Virus record (IMG/VR): IMGVR_UViG_3300008108_007099
Location: 27,492-91,491 of that record
Source: a virus
DNA: 64,000 nt
Direction: 5' to 3' (one strand)
Shown: positions 24,283-62,227 of the stretch, piece after piece
How positions within the stretch are numbered: the first letter of the stretch is position 1
Layout of the letters: each line of letters starts with the position of its first letter
The notes under the pieces: generated by a model
Told to the model about the DNA's origin: nothing
Databases searched by the model: none
The model's input: only the letters and a program-made list of their open reading frames with translations
Made by a program: the position numbers and the translations under genes

Positions 24283-24288
24283 ATTATA
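24283..24288 (-). promoter_or_regulatory. TATAAT box 5 nt before ATG (leaderless type)
   Basis: Reading on the minus strand: TATAAT, then TATGT, then ATG of the methyltransferase. A start site 5-7 nt after the box would fall at or next to the start codon. No ribosome binding site is present. It would drive the glycan-modification operon. Confidence 0.5.
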
Positions 24289-24427: not shown

Positions 24428-25344
24428 AGATGTAACAACCAACCACTAAGAATAAATGCCAGCCAAGTTCCGAGCGTAATTGGGAGTACATCACCATACC
24501 TAGTAATTAGATCCTCTAGCCACTTTTTCTTGTCCTCATTGCCTTCCTGAAGAAGTGTGTCCCCATCAAGTTGTACACCGCCATTAGGACCGGGAGGATT
24601 TTTGATTTTGCTACGAATGCGACCAAGCATAATTTTTGCAAATGCTAAAGCGCCGTCTTGCATAGCCTGTTGTACTCTTGTGTAGTCATTATTTTTCTGG
24701 ATGTACTGAACAATAACGTGGTGAACTTTATGCGGTCTAGGGTATAGTTTAATGTGATCATACCCACCATACCACTCCCAACCACCGATATTACTTGCTA
24801 TGCGGCTATATTGATACTCATATGAACTATATAATGACCACTCTCCTGCTCTGCCCCAGATAGGAGTTGTTGGATCTATCATACCACCTTGTATAGACGC
24901 ATATGCGCCGCCGGGGTAAAAATATTCTATCGGGATAGCTCCGCCTAAGTCGCTACTACTAAATGCAAATGTTGGCGTAGTTTTGTAGTATACATTCCTA
25001 ATCCAGCCAACTTCTGGTGGCATTTTGTAAATAGATTGACCGGGATTTGTTTTAAAAACATAGTAACGGAAGAACTCCATAGGAGCCCATTCTTCATAAA
25101 TTTGGAATGCTAAGTCAACAGCTGCGTCCAGTTGTTGGTCATCTAATTCAATTGAAACAACGGGAGCTCCAAGCATTAGAAGAATGTAATCTTTAAGTTG
25201 TTGTGTAATTTTAGCTCTACCCGGTCTTGGCCCTAGTAAAGCTACATCTAAGGGGTCTGAAACGCCTAAATTGCTTTGATTACCGCAATCCAAGCTATTT
25301 GTGGTGGGCATTTTGATGTAAAGTTCGCTGGAATATCCGTTCAT
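24424..25344 (-). CDS. 13: Neck protein, T4 gp13-like
   Basis: A 306-residue protein resembling T4 gp13, a head-to-tail neck protein that completes the filled head so that the tail can attach. The N-terminal region LKDYILLMLGAPVVSIELDD followed by QQLDAAVDLAFQIYEEW matches the gp13 pattern of a short helix, L-G-A-P, an acidic strand and an amphipathic helix. Near the C-terminus, GGVQLDGDTLLQEG corresponds to the gp13 GGVTVDG segment. The gene is on the minus strand, apart from the other tail genes. On its strand AATATATA ends 5 nt before the ATG and no Shine-Dalgarno is visible. Confidence 0.75.
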   Translation of the reverse strand: MNGYSSELYIKMPTTNSLDCGNQSNLGVSDPLDVALLGPRPGRAKITQQLKDYILLMLGAPVVSIELDDQQLDAAVDLAFQIYEEWAPMEFFRYYVFKTNPGQSIYKMPPEVGWIRNVYYKTTPTFAFSSSDLGGAIPIEYFYPGGAYASIQGGMIDPTTPIWGRAGEWSLYSSYEYQYSRIASNIGGWEWYGGYDHIKLYPRPHKVHHVIVQYIQKNNDYTRVQQAMQDGALAFAKIMLGRIRSKIKNPPGPNGGVQLDGDTLLQEGNEDKKKWLEDLITRYGDVLPITLGTWLAFILSGWLLHL

Positions 25345-25371
25345 ACTAATATATATTGACGAGGTAACAAA

Positions 25372-28300: not shown

Positions 28301-28749
28301 CAAATACGTTGCAGAATATTACCCATAATTTTTGGAATAGATTCCACTTTACAACTCCAGAGTTTGTGGAAGCTGATCCTAATACTTTGGTAGATTATTT
28401 TTCCAAAAATTTGAAATGGCTAAATGATAAGAATCTAATATTAATAGTTCAAAATATGCTAGATGAATTTGACAGAACTCATGAGCACCCAGAAGAAAAA
28501 AGCAGATTCGATTCTGAGCAATTTAATCATCCCGGTTACATCAAGTGGAAAGAACATGTTAAAAAAGCAAGAAGGCAAAAACGAGATGCGTTAAATATGG
28601 GAATACAAGAGCTCGAGAAACGCCGAAAATACAATCAATTTGTGGCAAGAATTACGCATCCAGAGAGACTTGAAAAGATGCTAAGTTTTGCTAGAGAAGC
28701 AGAACAACCAGAGCGCAAGAAAGCTGGAAGACCAAAGAAAAACGTATAA
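25372..28749 (+). CDS. Unknown 1125-residue charged helical protein
   Basis: A large protein I do not recognise. It is rich in Lys, Glu, Asp and Arg, predicted mostly helical, with no obvious enzymatic motif. It shows long stretches typical of extended or coiled helical scaffolds, and the C-terminus has ERKKAGRPKKNV, an AT-hook-like G-R-P core flanked by basic residues, hinting at DNA contact. Segment SSKVVNEAVE near residue 20 could be a gp21-type cleavage site, but this is weak. The start follows GAGGTAACAAA. The size and the surrounding structural genes suggest a virion or head-internal protein. Confidence 0.7.
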   Translation: MSSKQKMIEIYESFATKLSSKVVNEAVENSAPKIPQLLNDIDIDFVNQFDRKYWAQAIKKRYDMFFHYLVNLDKLRKKVAEHYFPQKLTDAKSIFDAPKFANLVPFVKKREIKNQAEAAAKAEATRMFPAGAEINPTVLKHPIFKDISADERSELRQIIDKINKHYIADTDKEFNNFVVGSENKPRDIQAKAFLKDLGRSLEGSYGKPDGYDLNNPRRMAMSKDGESKESRFVTDGFIFPTKKEIEDAIRTKLKHISRGISIPVDDADNKRLEGHALRKDRVTSDEGTSPLEKQLVQMYKLQARQEFEAKKQADSRFRFKESDIDKRAANLARQKMKSFSDAKELENYLMTEKGISQKDLKGLQNPFPNTKIEEIGDKFKNFIIQRNRAVEIPHKEMDVVDITDGVKNVRKVHNPILNKTIMFRDVKLEHPFERKEDNLTLDTTKTNLSGRGLGEKTFDPILFDRLLERWKALKNPKVPKSAKAGIENILQSHGLTKESSVNQIIDAAKRFYYQEAEPSSYVQGSDVSSTYSHHPLRMSAESKFFNRHHNPSEYDKVTEILFDKGSKYRPSGKTYDTLTLIDKAIKRFLRIKKNDKLGEKLPKMIMQRSFGALKALAQDRVISQLADPRLIMDANLGVTGAPPNYFGNANLIRELVHKEMLRYFRQNLFTGSIRGRGDFVDILDADAEDLACRQGKRSYSTGDCSLNMDIKSLQAMQNSGYAKSTSSVKELKADEMSDDIVSQRRQIHKAMEGVYEMMKSLYVVLKTKAALDKHGPAMLKAERTIKQMEEKFAANPKFKDVKDVSAFNAAKKEIQKYNNEARDEAIYQITQFFENNMSKDSEQFLEALHKDYVTNLNDIRKNPAFLARVSIPPELKGPEDAGAMAVADLKTFQDRFKARRKDSAAAATIDSRFRQAIESSDMSQLVKTFSTAAFEEPSQAAILHDKLTKRLPETEANFFKKMTDKELQEITKKLDATNTLQNITHNFWNRFHFTTPEFVEADPNTLVDYFSKNLKWLNDKNLILIVQNMLDEFDRTHEHPEEKSRFDSEQFNHPGYIKWKEHVKKARRQKRDALNMGIQELEKRRKYNQFVARITHPERLEKMLSFAREAEQPERKKAGRPKKNV

Positions 28750-28750
28750 T
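28745..28750 (+). promoter_or_regulatory. TATAAT box 5 nt before ATG (leaderless type)
   Basis: TATAAT, then GATTT, then the ATG at 28756. The box overlaps the stop codon of the preceding gene. There is no Shine-Dalgarno sequence for the downstream gene. Confidence 0.45.
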
Positions 28751-29022: not shown

Positions 29023-29692
29023 AACTTGGCTGTATGTCAGTTGGGCCGCATACTATAAAGCATCCTTCAGGAGCGCTCCTTACACTATTAATTTTCCACC
29101 ATCTTCTGGTATCGTTTTTAGGATAAAGAATTGAATTCTTAGTCAAAAAATCTAGGTGCGACCAGAAAATTAACTCCATGTCATCTTCTTTTATGATAAA
29201 ATTTTCAAAAACAAAGTTTCTTGTGTATTTAATTTTTACAGTTTTGTCGGAATAAAGAGGATCGACAACTTCTTTTGTTTCAGCCAACATGCAATACATG
29301 ATATCTTTTTTATAATTTCTTAATTTCTCGTTTACTGTCTGTGGTCTTAAAACTTCTTCGTCGGTTTCAGGTTGAGGAGACTGTGTTGGTTCTGGTTTTG
29401 TAAAATCTGGTATTTCAAATTCCTGAATTTTTACTTCCTCTTTTATTTTAGCCTCCTTAGGAGGAGGGGGAGGAGTAGGCATTTCAGGCTTTTGTTGTTC
29501 TGCCGTTACAGTAGTTGTTGTTCCAAAATCTAGTTTTTTATTGGGTTTTTGCGGATTTTGTTTATTATTCACGATGTCAGGAGAGAAGTCCATGTTGTGG
29601 ACTTCGAAATTATCCCAAACTTCTTGAGACATCATTATTGGGTTGGGTCCGCGAACCTTATATACAGATCCATCTTTATTTTTAATTACCAT
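29012..29692 (-). CDS. Unknown protein with Pro-rich linker, 226 aa
   Basis: Three parts are visible: a small N-terminal domain (MVIKNKDGSVYKVRGPNPIM), a proline/lysine/glutamate-rich disordered linker (~residues 50-115, with PTPPPPPKEAK), and a C-terminal domain of about 105 residues with KIKYTRNFVFENFIIKEDD and RRWWKINSVR. No family is recognised; it is probably a virion or baseplate accessory protein. The ATG at 29692 is preferred over a longer reading to 29728, because the latter overlaps the divergent gene start and neither has a ribosome binding site. A TATAAT box lies 4 nt before this ATG. Confidence 0.65.
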   Translation of the reverse strand: MVIKNKDGSVYKVRGPNPIMMSQEVWDNFEVHNMDFSPDIVNNKQNPQKPNKKLDFGTTTTVTAEQQKPEMPTPPPPPKEAKIKEEVKIQEFEIPDFTKPEPTQSPQPETDEEVLRPQTVNEKLRNYKKDIMYCMLAETKEVVDPLYSDKTVKIKYTRNFVFENFIIKEDDMELIFWSHLDFLTKNSILYPKNDTRRWWKINSVRSAPEGCFIVCGPTDIQPSFKL

Positions 29693-29696
29693 GTTA

Positions 29697-29702
29697 ATTA
29701 TA
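29697..29702 (-). promoter_or_regulatory. TATAAT box 4 nt before ATG (leaderless type)
   Basis: On the minus strand TATATATAAT is followed by TAAC and ATG. The same alternating AT tract lies about 20 nt before the divergent plus-strand gene at 29730, so it may serve both directions. Confidence 0.4.
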
Positions 29703-33731: not shown

Positions 33732-33764
33732 TTTTAACTCCAAGTACATAACTATTTTAGTACT

Positions 33765-37565: not shown

Positions 37566-38201
37566 ATGGCAGATCCAATTATGATGGGCATAGGCCCAAT
37601 AGGAACAACAAACGACATCATCTTCAAGAGGAAGTTTAGATGGACATTTGAAGTAAATCAGGTTTGCGGCGGTGGAAACACTTTCGGACAAATTCCTGCT
37701 TCATTCGTCAAAGTTGCGTCTAGACCGAATGTTTCTTTTGATGAAACTGAAATTAACTTCTTACAGGGAAAAATGTATATCCCCGGTAAGGCGACATTTG
37801 AGACTGTCACAGTAACCTACTATGACATTACTCCTGTCCGCAGCACAACAATCCTTAACTTGTATAACTGGATTGGTTCAGTTTACAATTTCCTCGGCGA
37901 GCCAACATTGGCCAACAATATGGCAGGAAGCTGGGAGAATCCCACCATGTCCTCGTTTGGCAATGGTGTTGGCGGATACGGTGGCACTGGCATTCTAACC
38001 ATGTATGATGGTGGCGGCGCTCCTCTAGAGCAGTGGACACTATACACATGCTGGCCACAATCTGTTAACTTTGGCGACTTGGATTACAGCAGCAGCGACG
38101 AGTGTAATATTGAGTTAACTCTTCGTTACACGTTTGCTAAGTGGCGTAACCTTTGCGGATACGAGCAACCGAACCCCTGCTACGCCGGCTGCCGTTTCTA
38201 A
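37566..38201 (+). CDS. 19: Tail tube protein, T4 gp19-like
   Basis: A 211-residue protein with the tail-tube pattern: RKFRWTFEVNQVCGG near residue 20, FVKVASRPNVSFDE, FLQGKMYIPGKATFETVTV and a late PQSVNFGDLDYSSSDECNIE, LTLRYTFAKW. These strands and the W-x-P-x-x-V-N-F-G-D-L-D segment are characteristic of gp19-type tube proteins that stack as hexamers inside the sheath. It directly follows the sheath gene, with AAAGGAG before the start, and is terminated by a strong hairpin at 38224-38260. Confidence 0.9.
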   Translation: MADPIMMGIGPIGTTNDIIFKRKFRWTFEVNQVCGGGNTFGQIPASFVKVASRPNVSFDETEINFLQGKMYIPGKATFETVTVTYYDITPVRSTTILNLYNWIGSVYNFLGEPTLANNMAGSWENPTMSSFGNGVGGYGGTGILTMYDGGGAPLEQWTLYTCWPQSVNFGDLDYSSSDECNIELTLRYTFAKWRNLCGYEQPNPCYAGCRF

Positions 38202-38223
38202 TATTGAGAATTATCACCAGTTC

Positions 38224-38265
38224 AAAATCCCCGTCTTTGAAATAAAAAGACGGGGATTTTCTCTT
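38224..38265 (+). terminator. Intrinsic terminator after the tube gene
   Basis: A 15-bp stem AAAATCCCCGTCTTT (38224-38238) pairs with AAAGACGGGGATTTT (38246-38260), loop GAAATAA, followed by a T-rich tail. It ends the sheath-tube operon. Just after it, TATAGATATATATT precedes the next gene and may hold that gene's promoter. Confidence 0.9.
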
Positions 38266-38294
38266 TTATAGATATATATTTTTGGAGGATTTTT

Positions 38295-38867
38295 ATGCGT
38301 GCTGAAGGCGAGATGGGGATATGGAGTCTCGATAACTTCGTAATGAAGAGGCAGTTTCGCTGGCTTTTCAGTATCGAGAATATTGTTGGCAAACCTGAAG
38401 CTAACACCGTAAATGTAAAACCTCCACTAAAATCACAAAGGCCCAATATTAGCTTCAAAGAAATTCCTCTAGAACATCAAAGCGAAACTATTTACATGCC
38501 GGGAAAAGTTGAATGGAAGCCTATAAATTTAACAGTTTATGATGTTGCAGCTTATTCATTGTTCAATGGTGCCTGCAGGCTAATAGACAATAATGTTTAC
38601 AGATGGATTAAATTGTTTTATTGGCCAGAAAATTCTACATACGGGTTCGCCACAAATCAGAACCCCAATACGTCTTTCAAAAGACCAGCTTTCTTGACTA
38701 TGCTTGATGGTCAAGGTGGAGTATTAGAGCAATGGCAATTCGACAACGCTTGGTGTCAAGACGTTAATTTTGGCGAACTTGATATGGCAGGATCAGACGT
38801 TATGACTATAGACCTTACTTTGAGATATGACCGAGCCTATATAATTGGACCGCGCTTGCCTGCTTAA
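38295..38867 (+). CDS. Second tail-tube-like protein (gp19/gp54-type)
   Basis: A 190-residue paralogue of the tube protein: KRQFRWLFSIENIVGKP, QRPNISFKEIPLEHQSETIY, MPGKVEWKPINLTVYD, QDVNFGELDMAGSDVMTIDL and TLRYDRAYII align strand for strand with the preceding gene. T4 also has a gp19 relative, gp54, that starts tube polymerisation on the baseplate, so this copy may be the tube initiator; an alternative is a second tube subunit. It has its own transcription unit after the terminator and a TTGGAGG ribosome binding site. Confidence 0.8.
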   Translation: MRAEGEMGIWSLDNFVMKRQFRWLFSIENIVGKPEANTVNVKPPLKSQRPNISFKEIPLEHQSETIYMPGKVEWKPINLTVYDVAAYSLFNGACRLIDNNVYRWIKLFYWPENSTYGFATNQNPNTSFKRPAFLTMLDGQGGVLEQWQFDNAWCQDVNFGELDMAGSDVMTIDLTLRYDRAYIIGPRLPA

Positions 38868-39106: not shown

Positions 39107-39121
39107 AATATAAATTATAGC

Positions 39122-39643
39122 CTAATGGTTTTTCTTTTTCTCTTTTTTTCTACCAGACATAACTGGATTACCATTCTTTATAGCAAATATTTTACTATAT
39201 TTCTTTTTAAGCTCGTTATAGTTCTTAGCTGTGCGCCATAGTTGCCTAAAGTGATTTAGTATGCAGGTTGTCATATAGTTAAAAGCTTTACCCTTACTTG
39301 GGTCAAATTTTTCTACTCTTTCAAAGCAGATAAGAACACCCTCTTGTATGGCGTCGTCCTCATCTATGTTACTAAACTTAGCATATCTTACTATATTTTT
39401 AGACAAAGTATAGAAAGCGTCTGCAAGTATTTTTTGTGCAGAAGTAAGGTCATCACTTGCTCGCACAATTTCTATATTGTCAAGGGCCAGAGGCACCATG
39501 ACACTATTTTTTACTTGAAAGATAGACCTTTGAAAATTAAGATCTTCTAAAAGAATTTGAAATTTATTTTGTTGTTTTTTGGCTGTTTGGAATCTTATAA
39601 TAATAGATTCAAAACTTTTATTATTTAAATATTCGGATGACAT
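39122..39643 (-). CDS. 55: Late-transcription sigma factor, T4 gp55-like
   Basis: A 173-residue sigma protein resembling T4 gp55, which replaces the host sigma factor for late genes and recognises a TATAAATA box. The core SNIDEDDAIQEGVLICFERV (~103-122) is the sigma region 2 signature, then KFDPSKGKAFNYMTTCILNH (~124-143) and FRQLWRTAKNYNELKKKY (~144-161) match the strongly conserved gp55 block. The C-terminus is very basic (SGRKKEKKKNH). Its presence matters for this window, because boxes close to TATAAATA precede several genes here. Confidence 0.9.
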   Translation of the reverse strand: MSSEYLNNKSFESIIIRFQTAKKQQNKFQILLEDLNFQRSIFQVKNSVMVPLALDNIEIVRASDDLTSAQKILADAFYTLSKNIVRYAKFSNIDEDDAIQEGVLICFERVEKFDPSKGKAFNYMTTCILNHFRQLWRTAKNYNELKKKYSKIFAIKNGNPVMSGRKKEKKKNH

Positions 39644-39673
39644 AATCTAATATATTAACCTATTAAAAATTTT

Positions 39674-41687: not shown

Positions 41688-41691
41688 ACTC

Positions 41692-41699
41692 TATTATAG
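41692..41699 (-). promoter_or_regulatory. CTATAATA box 4 nt before ATG (leaderless type)
   Basis: On the minus strand CTATAATA is followed by GAGT and ATG. It would drive the 122-aa / membrane / zinc-ribbon / 130-aa group. No ribosome binding site is present. Confidence 0.5.
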
Positions 41700-41722
41700 C
41701 AAGTCAATATAGGAGAATATAA

Positions 41723-42745
41723 ATGTCAGAATTTCCAAATCCTGAAGGTCAAGTAGCTGGTGGTGGTGTGCAAATTACTGGTAACATTCCACCGGAATTA
41801 CTAGCTAGAATGCAAAGGCCAGAGAATGCTCAGAGTCCTCAGAGTCCTCAGAGTCCTCAGCCAGTCCCACACTTGCCACCTCATAATGTTCCAATGCAAA
41901 CGAATTTTTCGAATGCTTCTGCCTCTACTCCATATGCATCTAATTCAAATCTTGAGTCTATCTTAAGTAAACTACGCCAGCAAAACACTGTTTATGAGGA
42001 AATTACACTTCCTAGTTTAGGACGCTTTTACAATGGTACTGACGGTCCTGTAGATGGCAAGCTGCATATTAGACCAATGTGTGGCGAGGAAGAACAGATT
42101 CTTGCGACTCCGCGATTTGTCCGTAAGGGACAGGCTATAGATATGATTTTCAGTCGTTGTATCCAAGAAAGTTTCAAGCCCGCTGAACTTCTTTCTGCCG
42201 ACAGGACTTTTATTCTTATTTACCTTCGTGGTATTTCTTATGGTGCTGAATATGAGGTTGAGGTAAAGGATCCAGATTCTGACCGTAAGTTTACTACTGT
42301 AATTGATTTGGATGGGCTTGTAAAGAATATTTGTCCGGCTGACTTTGGTCCTAACTTGAGCGACCAATTGCCAAAGAGCGGGTTGCCTTTTACATATCGA
42401 CTGTCTCGTGGCAAAGATGAAACTGAAATTCAGGAGCATCGCGAACGTCGTCTTCGTCAGTACGGAGATAATGCAGCCGATGACACGTTGCTATTCCGCA
42501 GCACTCAACTAGTTGAATCAATTGCAGACATTACTGACAAGACTGAAATTCAGATTATTCTGAGAAGTTTGCCAATTCAAGATTTGACATATTTGCGTCA
42601 GGTTTGCAATGAGCCTCCTTTTGGCGTTGATACCAAGGTCTCGATTGTTTCGCCTATGAGTAGCGAAGAATTCGAGGTGGATCTCCCTTTGGAATCGGCC
42701 TTTTTCTTCCCACGGCGCAAGAAGAAGGACAAGACCCTAGCTTAA
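41723..42745 (+). CDS. 26: Baseplate hub assembly protein, gp26-like
   Basis: A 340-residue protein. After a disordered Pro/Gln/Ser-rich N-terminus (residues ~1-85) comes ITLPSLGRFYNG, LHIRPMCGEEEQILATPRF, AIDMIFSRCIQESFKP and a beta-type segment AEYEVEVKDPDSDRKFTTVI, then a late helical part with QIILRSLPIQDLTYLRQV and KVSIVSPMSSEEFEVDLPLE. This order matches gp26-type baseplate hub assembly proteins of T4-like phages (in T4 only ~208 residues, without the N-terminal extension). The start has TAGGAG. The following short gene begins inside its stop codon (TAATG), as expected for a gp26/gp51 pair. Confidence 0.65.
   Translation: MSEFPNPEGQVAGGGVQITGNIPPELLARMQRPENAQSPQSPQSPQPVPHLPPHNVPMQTNFSNASASTPYASNSNLESILSKLRQQNTVYEEITLPSLGRFYNGTDGPVDGKLHIRPMCGEEEQILATPRFVRKGQAIDMIFSRCIQESFKPAELLSADRTFILIYLRGISYGAEYEVEVKDPDSDRKFTTVIDLDGLVKNICPADFGPNLSDQLPKSGLPFTYRLSRGKDETEIQEHRERRLRQYGDNAADDTLLFRSTQLVESIADITDKTEIQIILRSLPIQDLTYLRQVCNEPPFGVDTKVSIVSPMSSEEFEVDLPLESAFFFPRRKKKDKTLA
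41831..41857 (+). repeat. Three tandem 9-bp repeats in the gp26-like gene
   Basis: The unit CAGAGTCCT occurs three times in a row, encoding Q-S-P three times in the disordered N-terminal part. Its length is a multiple of three, so copy-number change would keep the frame. Confidence 0.9.
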
Positions 42746-48545: not shown

Positions 48546-48553
48546 TATTTATC
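48546..48553 (-). promoter_or_regulatory. GATAAATA box 4 nt before ATG (leaderless type)
   Basis: On the minus strand GATAAATA is followed by AAGT and ATG; seven of eight bases match the T4 late box TATAAATA. No ribosome binding site. Confidence 0.55.
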
Positions 48554-48568
48554 GCTCAGATATATTTA

Positions 48569-49096
48569 TTATACCTGTTCTAATGCCATTTTTTTTGCTA
48601 TTTCAAAAGGAATTGGAGAATAATTATGATGTTCAACACAACAATTGAAATAAGCTGGGTCTATACTTGTATCGTTTAACATCACTTTGCGATGATGTAT
48701 ATGACCATGCATATTAATCAATCCATCAAACAAACAGCTATTATGCACAGGATAATGAGATAAAATAAAACTTCTATCCAGTCTGTGCGTTCCTCTAATG
48801 TCTTTGAAATACGGCATGTAGTCTGATATTTTGAATATATCATGATTTCCTCTAATTAAAACCTTTTTACCGTTTAATCGCTCGAGAATTTTAATGTTTT
48901 TTCTTGATATTGCAACATCACCAAGGTGATAAACTTGATCATTTTTATTTACATTCTTATTCCAATTATCTATCATCGTTTCATCCATGGCTTCCACGGA
49001 AGGAAACTTACGTATCAAGCTGCCGTCATCCTTAACAAAAGTTAAGAATTTTTCATGGCCAAAATGAGTATCTGAAATAAGAAAGAGGTTCGCCAT
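48569..49096 (-). CDS. Calcineurin-type metallophosphoesterase
   Basis: A 175-residue protein with a complete metallophosphoesterase metal-site series: LISDTHFGH (residues 5-13), HLGDVAI, LIRGNHDIF, ILSHYP and MHGHIHHRK. This fold hydrolyses phosphomonoesters, phosphodiesters or cyclic nucleotides; the small single-domain form resembles YfcE/Mg-dependent phosphodiesterases. The ATG at 49096 is chosen over a longer reading because of the motif position. That start codon lies in the 3' arm of a perfect 14-bp hairpin (49085-49117), discussed under findings. Ribosome binding is weak (an AGG very close to the ATG). Confidence 0.8.
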   Translation of the reverse strand: MANLFLISDTHFGHEKFLTFVKDDGSLIRKFPSVEAMDETMIDNWNKNVNKNDQVYHLGDVAISRKNIKILERLNGKKVLIRGNHDIFKISDYMPYFKDIRGTHRLDRSFILSHYPVHNSCLFDGLINMHGHIHHRKVMLNDTSIDPAYFNCCVEHHNYSPIPFEIAKKMALEQV

Positions 49097-49117
49097 AAAC
49101 CTATTATGGCGAACCTC
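49085..49117 (-). terminator. Intrinsic terminator after nrdJ, overlapping the next gene start
   Basis: GAGGTTCGCCATAA (49085-49098) pairs perfectly with TTATGGCGAACCTC (49104-49117) over a 5-nt loop, with TTTCTT following on the minus strand. It lies 21 bases past the nrdJ stop. The ATG and first codons of the downstream phosphoesterase are in the stem. Confidence 0.8.
49102..49108 (-). promoter_or_regulatory. CATAATA box 5 nt before ATG, inside the nrdJ terminator hairpin
   Basis: On the minus strand CATAATA is followed by GGTTT and the ATG of the phosphoesterase. The box sits in the 5' arm and loop of the 14-bp hairpin, so a transcript started here would be leaderless and free of the hairpin, while a transcript from upstream would fold across it. 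Confidence 0.45.
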
Positions 49118-55109: not shown

Positions 55110-55117
55110 TATTTATC
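55110..55117 (-). promoter_or_regulatory. GATAAATA box 5 nt before ATG (leaderless type)
   Basis: On the minus strand GATAAATA is followed by ATGTA and ATG of the Gly/Pro-rich tagged protein. It lies back to back with the plus-strand box at 55125-55132. Confidence 0.55.
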
Positions 55118-55124
55118 CATGATT

Positions 55125-55132
55125 AATAAATA
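55125..55132 (+). promoter_or_regulatory. AATAAATA box 5 nt before ATG (leaderless type)
   Basis: AATAAATA is followed by ATTTT and the ATG at 55138; seven of eight bases match TATAAATA. The whole divergent intergenic gap is 33 bases and holds both boxes. Confidence 0.6.
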
Positions 55133-55868: not shown

Positions 55869-57281
55869 ATGGCAAAAATTTTACTTAAAAACGACATAAG
55901 CCAAATCACAACAAAGAATGAACCTTTGTCTAAATTTCTTTACGAGAATCTCAGATTCCGCGATAGAAATTATTTCCACAATAGAGCTTACAGGCAAAGA
56001 ATTTGGGACGGTTACACGAATTTCTTTAATAAAAATAACGGTAAATTCCTAACTGGATTGCTCCCAGAAATTTTGATGGCTTGCAAAGCCATGAATGAGC
56101 CAGTTGAATTTATTGACCAAAGAACAAATGTTGAATTTTCTGTAAAAGAAATAACCTCATCCTTTTTGCATTCCTGTACACCAAAAGGTTCTACACCAAT
56201 AACTTTGGAAGACTATCAGGTAGACTTGGTAAATACCGCAATCAAGAATAAAAGAGGTGTTATATTTGCGCCAACCAGCGCTGGCAAGTCGTTGACAATG
56301 CTATCCATACTTAAATGCCTACCGTCTGGCACTAAAACTCTTGTATTACAAAACAGAAAAACTCTAGCAATTCAAAACTACGAAGAATATACTAAATGGG
56401 GCCTCCATAATGTAGGACGCATTTGGGGTGGGGTTGATGAGCCCAGTGATATTACTGTGTCTACTGTTCAGTCTATTTCAAAAGCGGAAGATCTTTTGCC
56501 GCAAGTGGAAGTACTTTTAGTTGATGAAATACATGATATGATGAGCGCGGCTCCCAAAGCTGTTTACAGAATGCTAAAAAAATGCAGTGTTAGAATTGCA
56601 GTTTCTGCTACTCCTTTCAAATTTGGAGAAAGCGACAAAATACAAAAATTTTATGTTAAAGGATTCTTCGGCCCTCCCTTCAAAATTAAATCAACAGAAA
56701 CAGGAGTTGTTACAACCAAAGAATTACAAGAGCGCGGAAGACTATCCAAAAGCAAATGTAAATTCTTCAAAATAACATCTCCAGATTTAGAATATGAGCT
56801 TTACCAAGACGCTGTAAATTTGGGCATTGTCGAAAATGCCGAACTTCACGAGAAGGTTGTTAATTTAGCAAACTCACAGTTAGGCAGAACTTTAATTTTG
56901 GTCGATAGATTAGCCCATGGCGATACATTGCAGTCTCTAATACCCAACGCTCTATGGGTTCAGGGTAAGGATAATGATGAAACAAGAAAGCAAGTTATAG
57001 AACAATTGCAAAAATCTGAGAATTGTATAGCCATTGCTACACAAGGTATTTTCAATACTGGAATTAACGTATTTGTGCATACTTTGATTAATGCTGCCGG
57101 TGGGCAAGCAGACCATCAAATAATACAGAGAATGGGTCGCGGTCTTAGAACAGCCAAAGATAAAGAAGAATTACTTTACATTGATTTTATATTTGAAACA
57201 AACCCTTACCTACACAGACATAGCCTAAAACGGGTCAAAATTTTGCAAAAACAGGGACACGATGTAGAAATTCTGGACTAA
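55869..57281 (+). CDS. uvsW: SF2 DNA helicase, UvsW-like
   Basis: A 470-residue superfamily 2 helicase. Walker A APTSAGKS is at residues 134-141, motif Ia near KTLVLQNRKTL, motif II LLVDEIHDMM at ~214-223, motif III IAVSATPFKF, and motif VI QRMGRGLRTA near 420. The N-terminal ~110 residues form the accessory domain seen in T4 UvsW, which unwinds branched DNA and moves replication from early origins to recombination. Ribosome binding site AGAGGTG. The gene starts in a 123-base gap that includes a 24-codon ORF of no clear value. Confidence 0.85.
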   Translation: MAKILLKNDISQITTKNEPLSKFLYENLRFRDRNYFHNRAYRQRIWDGYTNFFNKNNGKFLTGLLPEILMACKAMNEPVEFIDQRTNVEFSVKEITSSFLHSCTPKGSTPITLEDYQVDLVNTAIKNKRGVIFAPTSAGKSLTMLSILKCLPSGTKTLVLQNRKTLAIQNYEEYTKWGLHNVGRIWGGVDEPSDITVSTVQSISKAEDLLPQVEVLLVDEIHDMMSAAPKAVYRMLKKCSVRIAVSATPFKFGESDKIQKFYVKGFFGPPFKIKSTETGVVTTKELQERGRLSKSKCKFFKITSPDLEYELYQDAVNLGIVENAELHEKVVNLANSQLGRTLILVDRLAHGDTLQSLIPNALWVQGKDNDETRKQVIEQLQKSENCIAIATQGIFNTGINVFVHTLINAAGGQADHQIIQRMGRGLRTAKDKEELLYIDFIFETNPYLHRHSLKRVKILQKQGHDVEILD

Positions 57282-57622
57282 GTTCCGGCTGTCATGATGT
57301 CAACGATATCACCTATGGTGCCATCTATTTCATCAACATTATCTAATTGTTTTCTTTTTGGATCGTCAGGCGGTAATTGTTTATAGAATTGAAGATTTTT
57401 AATTGTGTTTTTTACTCCCATTTGAGTGGAAGTTCCTTTGGGACCCGGCACTTCTTGCGTTTTAAGGTTTCGCAAAGGCTGTTTTCTCAGCTCTCCATTA
57501 CTTCCAATTCCGCCTAAATCAAATGCGCTTCTTAAAATGTCAAGATAATTAGTTTCTTGGTTCTGAATTGTTTCATTCAAAACTGTTAAATACCATGACT
57601 TAAATTCTAGCTTTATTTCCAT
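57278..57622 (-). CDS. Unknown 114-aa protein with capsid-targeting-like tag
   Basis: The N-terminus MEIKLEFKSWYLTVLNETI carries the aromatic tag F-K-S-W-Y, followed by V-L-N-E as a possible cleavage end. The rest is short and charged, partly disordered (RKQPLRNLKTQEVPGPKGTS), ending in a small acidic stretch (IDGTIGDIVDIMTAGT). No family is recognised. The exact TATAAATA box ends 5 nt before the ATG and there is no ribosome binding site, the clearest leaderless candidate in the window. It converges with UvsW, overlapping by 4 bases. Confidence 0.65.
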   Translation of the reverse strand: MEIKLEFKSWYLTVLNETIQNQETNYLDILRSAFDLGGIGSNGELRKQPLRNLKTQEVPGPKGTSTQMGVKNTIKNLQFYKQLPPDDPKRKQLDNVDEIDGTIGDIVDIMTAGT

Positions 57623-57627
57623 AGATA

Positions 57628-57635
57628 TATTTATA
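57628..57635 (-). promoter_or_regulatory. Exact TATAAATA box 5 nt before ATG (leaderless type)
   Basis: On the minus strand TATAAATA is followed by TATCT and ATG. It matches the T4 late consensus in all eight positions, with spacing that puts the start of transcription at or next to the start codon. Confidence 0.65.
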
Positions 57636-57655
57636 GAGGCTTAAGGTATTTTTTG

Positions 57656-61609: not shown

Positions 61610-62074
61610 ATGAACAGAGGCCCGTACGTAGAGATTAGATTGACACCACCAATGATTGAATTGGCTCACACTTTGGCCAAAGAACTAGGTGTTTTAAGAA
61701 ATTCAATCGAGGAAGGTGCTGGTAACATTACTGGATTCTGTGCCGAATTAGCATGCAAAAAGCACTTCGGCATACCTCTAGATGAAATTCAGAACACTTA
61801 TCACTATGACATTTTGGTTAACGGTATTACGTATGATGTGAAAGCTAAAAAAAGAAAAGATGCTCCAAGATACTGGCACGAAGCTAGCATCTCTGATTAC
61901 AACACAAGTCAAAAGTGTAATTTGGGTTTTTATCCGAAACAACAATATTTGGACGAAGCAAGATTCCTTAAAAAAGGACAAATCGATGGCTCAAATAATT
62001 TTGAAGTTAAAGGGGATTGCTGGAATTTGGTCTACGAAAAATTAAATCCAATCAGCCAAATTAAAAGAAATTAG
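61610..62074 (+). CDS. PD-(D/E)XK-like protein, 154 aa
   Basis: A 154-residue protein with GFCAELACKKHFGIPLDEIQ, then YDILVNGITYDVKAKKRKD, matching the E...D...x-V-K catalytic layout of the PD-(D/E)XK nuclease fold. A closely related protein is encoded 1.1 kb downstream (63214-63738), also ending in the segment DCWNLVYE / DCFNLEYQ, so the two are paralogues. Ribosome binding site GGAG. The gene is followed at once by two tRNA genes on the other strand, a common setting for mobile or host-takeover genes. Confidence 0.6.
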   Translation: MNRGPYVEIRLTPPMIELAHTLAKELGVLRNSIEEGAGNITGFCAELACKKHFGIPLDEIQNTYHYDILVNGITYDVKAKKRKDAPRYWHEASISDYNTSQKCNLGFYPKQQYLDEARFLKKGQIDGSNNFEVKGDCWNLVYEKLNPISQIKRN

Positions 62075-62148
62075 TGCAAAGTCGTGGAGTTGAACCAACG
62101 TGTGCCGGCTTATAAGGCCGGTCCTCAAAGCCGTCGAGGACACTTTGC
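62075..62148 (-). tRNA. tRNA-Ile(UAU), slightly irregular
   Basis: On the minus strand the acceptor GCAAAGT pairs with ACTTTGC. The D stem CCTC pairs with GAGG, the anticodon stem CCGGC with GCCGG, and the loop CTTATAA gives anticodon TAT, which reads the isoleucine codon AUA. The T arm needs a bulged base (CGTTGG with CCACG), and position 8 is not T in this alignment. CCA is not encoded. It directly follows the stop of the preceding gene and its own folding is good but not perfect. Confidence 0.6.
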
Positions 62149-62152
62149 AGAT

Positions 62153-62227
62153 TGGGCTCTCTGGGACTTGAACCCAGAACCGAACGATTATGAGTCGTTT
62201 GCTCTAGACCAGTTGAGCTAAGAGCCC
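62153..62227 (-). tRNA. tRNA with anticodon CAT (Met or Ile2)
   Basis: On the minus strand a clean 75-nt cloverleaf: acceptor GGGCTCT/AGAGCCC, D arm GCTC...GAGC, anticodon stem AACGA/TCGTT with loop CTCATAA, T arm CTGGG-TTCAAGT-CCCAG. The discriminator is A and CCA is not encoded. CAT could be elongator methionine or, if Cys34 were lysidine-modified, isoleucine AUA; the neighbouring UAU tRNA already reads AUA, so Met is somewhat favoured. Likely co-transcribed with the other tRNA. Confidence 0.9.

Follow-up and report, generated by a model that had tools for sequence, protein, structure and literature searches.

The systems closest to the promoters considered here are found in bacteriophage T4 and in certain bacteria. 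In T4, the late box spans -13 to -6 of the transcription start (PMC1524935). In Deinococcus-Thermus and Actinobacteria, leaderless genes have a -10 motif, TANNNT, beside the open reading frame, which is read by the housekeeping sigma factor (PMC3160421, PMC12340547). The promoters described below resemble T4 late promoters in the box, the lack of a -35 element, the distance to the predicted start, a gp55-like sigma factor without region 4, and the use (presumed here) of host RNA polymerase. Note that T4 late mRNAs carry leaders whereas, in this phage group, the box adjoins the ATG. What they share with the bacterial genes is a -10 box some 10-12 bp ahead of the start, to be expected only where a gene opens its operon. 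Unlike those host genes, the genes studied here belong to a phage, have a T4-late-like NATAWATA form of the box, and come with their own sigma factor. Separately, work on phage AR9 includes a comment by its authors that leaderless transcripts are frequent in phages. We rejected AR9 itself as a leaderless precedent; its leaders are 26-491 nt long. Our search of the openly accessible literature found no earlier report of late-type boxes abutting open reading frames.

The DNA analysed, which we call the window, is 64,000 nucleotides long and corresponds to bases 27,492-91,491 of a 91,491-base virus record. The source phage is a T4-related myovirus, and its closest named relative is the 595-kb huge phage LR756511 (uncultured). 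This is the closest named record for both the helicase (51.9% identity) and the sigma factor (57.6%). Since relatives in IMG/VR reach 532 kb, the 91.5-kb contig probably represents only part of a huge-phage genome. Genes of the window specify the sheath, two tube proteins, and hub of a contractile tail, along with a UvsW-type helicase, SbcC/D, ribonucleotide reductase, a DNA polymerase-like protein, and a small sigma factor. The two tail-tube paralogues are in tandem after the sheath gene (37566-38867). On the minus strand, a tRNA-Ile with anticodon TAT adjoins a tRNA with anticodon CAT (62074-62227). Gene starts were set mechanically, by length-based tiling; the training of a codon-usage caller was dominated by the giant tail genes.

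A sequence-only reading of the window had listed nine genes with a box a few bases before the ATG, and all nine boxes were found. Briefly, TATAAATA at 57628-57635 (minus strand) occupies exactly -13 to -6 of ATG 57622, the start of a 114-aa gene (57278-57622). The same positions are taken by GATAAATA before ATG 55104 (118-aa gene; box at 55110-55117, minus strand) and by AATAAATA before ATG 55138 (151-aa gene; box at 55125-55132, plus strand). These two starts are divergent and share a 33-nt gap, in which the predicted leaderless boxes stand back to back. A further GATAAATA, at 48546-48553 (minus strand), ends at -5 of ATG 48541 (178-aa gene). TATAAATA is present exactly, or one change away, at 57622, 55104, 55138, and 48541. 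The TATAAT starts deviate more. On the minus strand, TATAAT ends at -6 of ATG 24277 (24283-24288; methyltransferase-like, 181 aa), at -6 of ATG 41687 (41693-41698; 122-aa gene), where it is near-palindromic (CTATTATAG), and at -5 of ATG 29692 (29697-29702; 226 aa from that ATG). CATAAT, at 49103-49108 on the same strand, ends at -7 of ATG 49096, which begins a metallophosphoesterase gene. Neither 29692 nor 49096 is the start of the longest open reading frame; orthologues start there and keep the box. Three cases were absent from the earlier list, all on the minus strand. TATAAT at 39114-39119 ends at -8 of ATG 39106 (78-aa gene), with a predicted leader of 0-2 nt. TATATT at 39649-39654 ends at -6 of ATG 39643, the start of the gp55-like sigma gene itself (TATATT-AGATT-ATG). 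Finally, the Ad2-like neck gene at 25344 has a box ending at -6 (AATATATA-TTAGT-ATG).

The ninth listed box is TATAAT at 28745-28750 (plus strand), before ATG 28756, and includes the upstream stop codon TAA (28747-28749). It is probably a chance match: the stop codon that it overlaps lies 6 nt upstream of the ATG, and two relatives lack the box. Might all of the boxes be of this kind, arising by chance in AT-rich intergenic DNA and then picked as examples? The earlier examples were indeed picked. We scored box-to-ATG distance against shuffled controls, as had been proposed with them. Of the 69 genes tiled over the full length of the contig (91,491 bases), eight carry TATAAT or ATAAATA, without mismatch, at an end position of -8 to -4 relative to the ATG; flanking positions predict 0.5. 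Dinucleotide shuffles gave 0.82 boxes, with a maximum of 4 in 400 (Poisson p 2.4e-6). The box ends at exactly -6 in six of the eight cases.

This enrichment over shuffles extends to relatives. We counted matches ending -7 to -5 at the heads of transcription units, a head being a gene that is divergent, or at least 10 nt after the previous gene, as inferred from gene order. There were 7 in the window's own contig (0.40 expected), 32 in close and mid relatives (6.3 expected), and 13 in LR756511 (1.9 expected). Over 20 records, the real pattern had 88 matches and the reversed pattern 35. Related genomes are non-independent; tests weighted by family still hold. The motif derived by expectation maximisation was NATAWATA. 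A run seeded with TATAAT moved towards a T-rich motif, and we therefore relied on exact words for the TATAAT class. The 532-kb relative G013 (53% GC) has almost no signal, which counts against the reading given below. In the same pipeline, 100 kb of T4 gave a box peak at -27 to -30 and zero sites at -7 to -5, and a 50-kb piece of cyanophage S-SSM7 also gave zero such sites. Hence, T4 itself uses leaders, as had been assumed, and its box is about 22 bases further upstream of the start codon than here.

Individual boxes are also conserved at orthologous starts, and the pattern is common to relatives down to roughly 50% identity. At the place matching the 57622 box, relative L016 has TGTAAATA. 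Orthologues of 48541 have CTAAATA in L016 and CATAAATA in L100. In the 55138 family, 8 of 11 members are boxed, with ATAAATA or a variant in L016, L019, L110, L086, and L127 (50-78% identity). The 41687 family has TATAAT a few nucleotides before the ATG in six contigs, while the flanks change; it is kept in G001, G003, G004, G005, and G009 at protein identities of 27-66%. The 24277 box is kept in L095, and orthologues of 29692 in L117, L129, and L114 start at the same ATG with the box present. The fraction boxed is 5 of 10 in the 39106 family and 4 of 9 in the neck family (25344), where box variants are kept. Chance is contradicted by this conservation and by the shuffle, position, family-weighted, and cross-genome tests; we find it hardly credible as a general explanation.

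Our next concern was whether the boxes act in transcription or translation. Boxes are found at 46 of 1240 unit heads and at 5 of 684 internal operon genes (p 4e-5). The depletion inside operons holds with each protein family weighted once (p 3e-4). The same word also ends near -17 and -29, ahead of Shine-Dalgarno leaders. We conclude from these three properties that the box is probably a promoter and not a translation signal. Box position and location at unit heads, with heads called from gene order, fit the description of bacterial leaderless genes given above. A translational signal, either an AU-rich, S1-type ribosome site or simple spacer composition, would be in keeping with DNA that is generally AT-rich before ATG codons. 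Internal operon genes, in which the box is depleted, need translation signals equally. Exact words at a fixed distance, their recurrence near -17 and -29, and the base at -1 (see below) likewise speak against it, and we consider such a signal very unlikely.

At its start sites, bacterial RNA polymerase favours a pyrimidine at -1 followed by a purine at +1. At -1 of the ATG, 88% of box genes have T or C, versus 50% of Shine-Dalgarno genes (for T alone, p 1.5e-10); counted by gene family, a pyrimidine occurs there in 40 of 47 (p about 1e-6). We take this pyrimidine to be an initiator signature. Since it falls exactly at the ATG, it provides independent support for transcription starting on the A. 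The same start is predicted from T4, whose late box covers -13 to -6 of the transcription start. In T4, 12 of 14 copies of TATAAATA are followed, at a distance of 6 nt, by A or G; here, the A of the ATG takes that place. Box ends range from -8 to -4, and some predicted leaders may be 1-2 nt. For boxes ending at -4 or -5, the start would need a shorter spacing than that of T4. Mechanical start assignment raises the prospect that the true starts are downstream in-frame codons with their own Shine-Dalgarno sequences, the boxes then giving ordinary short leaders. Orthologues of boxed genes align from residue 1 at these ATGs, at 26-97% identity, and the -1 pyrimidine falls at the same ATGs. Mis-assignment is thus most improbable. 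The claim of leaderless-type promoters, the 28756 box probably excepted, is strongly supported by T4 spacing, boxes at orthologous starts, unit heads, the -1 pyrimidine, and the lack of such sites in T4 and the cyanophage. We regard leaderless, or nearly leaderless, promoters as likely.

What might read these promoters? A candidate is a gp55-like sigma factor of 173 aa, which has region 2 only and is encoded at 39122-39643 (minus strand). The searches agree with the proposal that this gene is a gp55 homologue, if a distant one. The protein matches PHROG 234 (late sigma; 1.9e-8), PHROG 351 (1.4e-10), and Pfam Sigma70_r2 (3.2e-7), and aligns weakly with a profile of the T4 and S-SSM7 proteins (E 1e-4, probability 57%). 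Its AlphaFold model (pLDDT 80) retrieves sigma domain 2 in fold searches, with high probability and weak E-values; gp55 (7d7c) is at rank 47. The N-terminus has Y-[VL]-N-N-K, common to T4 gp55. The C-terminus is a lysine-rich tail, without an evident clamp-binding tail. A gp55-like sigma is encoded by 17 of the 22 related records. A second, shorter paralogue resembling sigma region 2 occurs in LR756511 and G013 (L184, 20670-20897; L156, 6463-6687). In contrast with T4, whose sigma is only distantly related, no T4-type sliding clamp (PF02916) was detected in 12 contigs and LR756511, with T4 positive in the same search; the clamp may be diverged or on missing parts. Likewise, the same number of contigs, together with LR756511, yielded no gene for the beta subunit or for any multisubunit RNA polymerase. 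Hence, we presume that host polymerase is used.

On balance, we judge it probable that the boxes are promoters with a -10 element only, set directly against their open reading frames, and that they give leaderless or nearly leaderless mRNAs; most likely, they are read by host polymerase with the phage gp55-like sigma. The box, NATAWATA or TATAAT, would end about 6 nt (4-8) before the ATG. RNA polymerase, carrying a region-2-only sigma without a domain for a -35 element, would start on the A of the ATG, or within 1-2 nt. The resulting mRNA would be translated by a 70S ribosome binding the 5'-terminal AUG, the established route for leaderless mRNAs. Each gene would have either no leader or a short Shine-Dalgarno leader, with the box near -17 or -29. 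Within this scheme we infer where transcription starts, that the phage sigma recognises the box, that expression is late, and that translation is leaderless. That the gp55-like sigma reads the boxes as late promoters specifically is a proposal that we only slightly favour, with the TATAAT class the least secure.

Alternatively, the host housekeeping sigma could read the same leaderless promoters, in which case the genes may be early or middle and the gp55 homologue irrelevant. Many boxes are TATAAT, fitting the sigma70 -10 element, and -10 motifs adjacent to open reading frames are known for host genes (PMC3160421, PMC12340547). Furthermore, the gene for gp55 is itself boxed here (G000), with box-like sequences at orthologues in L107 and L100; most other orthologues have a Shine-Dalgarno leader. 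Set against this, no -35 element is detectable, with TTGACA matches flat over spacers of 8-29 for either box class, and the ATAAATA class agrees with T4 late promoters in both consensus and spacing. Boxes also occur at virion genes, including the Ad2 neck gene and giant tail genes of relative G010. A further point against is that these phages also use Shine-Dalgarno leaders. Scanning genome contigs for the sigma picked out just one, of 4 kb and from a Neisseriaceae MAG, which is insufficient to name the host. We consider reading by the host sigma rather unlikely. The sequence-only reading had also wondered if leader type separates gene classes. Its counterexamples with ordinary leaders (17745, 37566, and 43757) do have Shine-Dalgarno leaders, as do the sheath, tube, and hub genes of the window. 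However, there is no clean split, since virion genes and gp55 orthologues show either type.

Divergent genes are tightly packed, and many such pairs are separated by only 15-37 nt. Between ATG 41687 (minus strand) and the baseplate-hub gene at 41723 (plus strand), the 35-nt gap (41688-41722) contains the near-palindromic TATA box. In the 27-nt gap between 25344 (minus strand) and 25372 (plus strand), a TA repeat (25348-25357) holds the neck gene box and ends about -17 of 25372, the leader of which contains GAGG. Symmetric bidirectional promoters are documented in bacteria. We offer, as a suggestion only, that these two near-palindromic boxes may serve both directions, one side being leaderless and the other having a short Shine-Dalgarno leader. 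Elsewhere, divergent ATGs flank a 15-nt gap (33750-33764), kept in relatives at 78-93% protein identity, with room for at most one A/T box. At 29690-29693, opposing starts overlap as CATG (minus ATG 29692-29690, plus ATG 29691-29693), and both have orthologues.

The box at 49096 has a further feature. In T4 genes e, soc, 49, and I-TevI, a hairpin in read-through RNA hides the start, and late transcripts from inside the hairpin free it (PMC3014915). The 49096 phosphoesterase gene is downstream of ribonucleotide reductase. Its box lies inside a 14-bp hairpin (49085-49117, minus strand; MFE z -7.4), the 3' arm of which holds the ATG and is followed by a U-rich run. The hairpin is kept in G001, G002, and L100, where one outer pair has changed in a compensating manner from G-C to A-T; the covariation support, from one pair, is weak. 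As in T4 gene e, box and ATG are within a conserved hairpin that only upstream RNA, here read-through from the ribonucleotide reductase gene, can form. Such read-through would hide the 49096 start or terminate, and a leaderless transcript would escape both. Unlike the four T4 cases, the freed transcript is predicted to be leaderless, the hairpin is also terminator-like, and a single gene is concerned. Start-codon hairpins occur at 49096 and a few others, and are not general among box genes.

Huge phages are described as encoding IF1, IF3, and bS21, and their Shine-Dalgarno use and rpS1 are discussed, in passages of PMC7162821 that make no mention of leaderless promoters. Relatives of the present phage resemble the phages of those passages in encoding IF3 (7 of 22 related records, including LR756511) and bS21 (8 of 22). 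Loci include G005 95535-96080, G017 217095-217664, and L189-L192. The window's own fragment yielded neither gene. In G005, G017, G019, G020, and LR756511, a leaderless-type box precedes a conserved gene that lies one or two positions upstream of IF3 (two in LR756511). According to the title of Tedin 1999, cited in PMC12340547, IF3 antagonises start selection on leaderless mRNAs. A speculative scheme, which we put forward as doubtful, is that huge phages of the present group run a leaderless programme. A gp55-type sigma would make AUG-first mRNAs, with phage IF3 and bS21 tuning host ribosomes between leaderless and Shine-Dalgarno messages.

If correct, our reading would mean that placing the box against the open reading frame removes the leader and lets divergent genes share gaps of 15-35 nt. 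Control of expression would pass to a different mode of translation initiation. From this reading, the predicted start is exact for dozens of genes of uncultured huge phages, and there is, given the reported antagonism, as far as that title states it, a reason to ask why such phages carry IF3. Late transcription of the T4 type is textbook material, and relatives without leaders would be a departure from its leadered late mRNAs.
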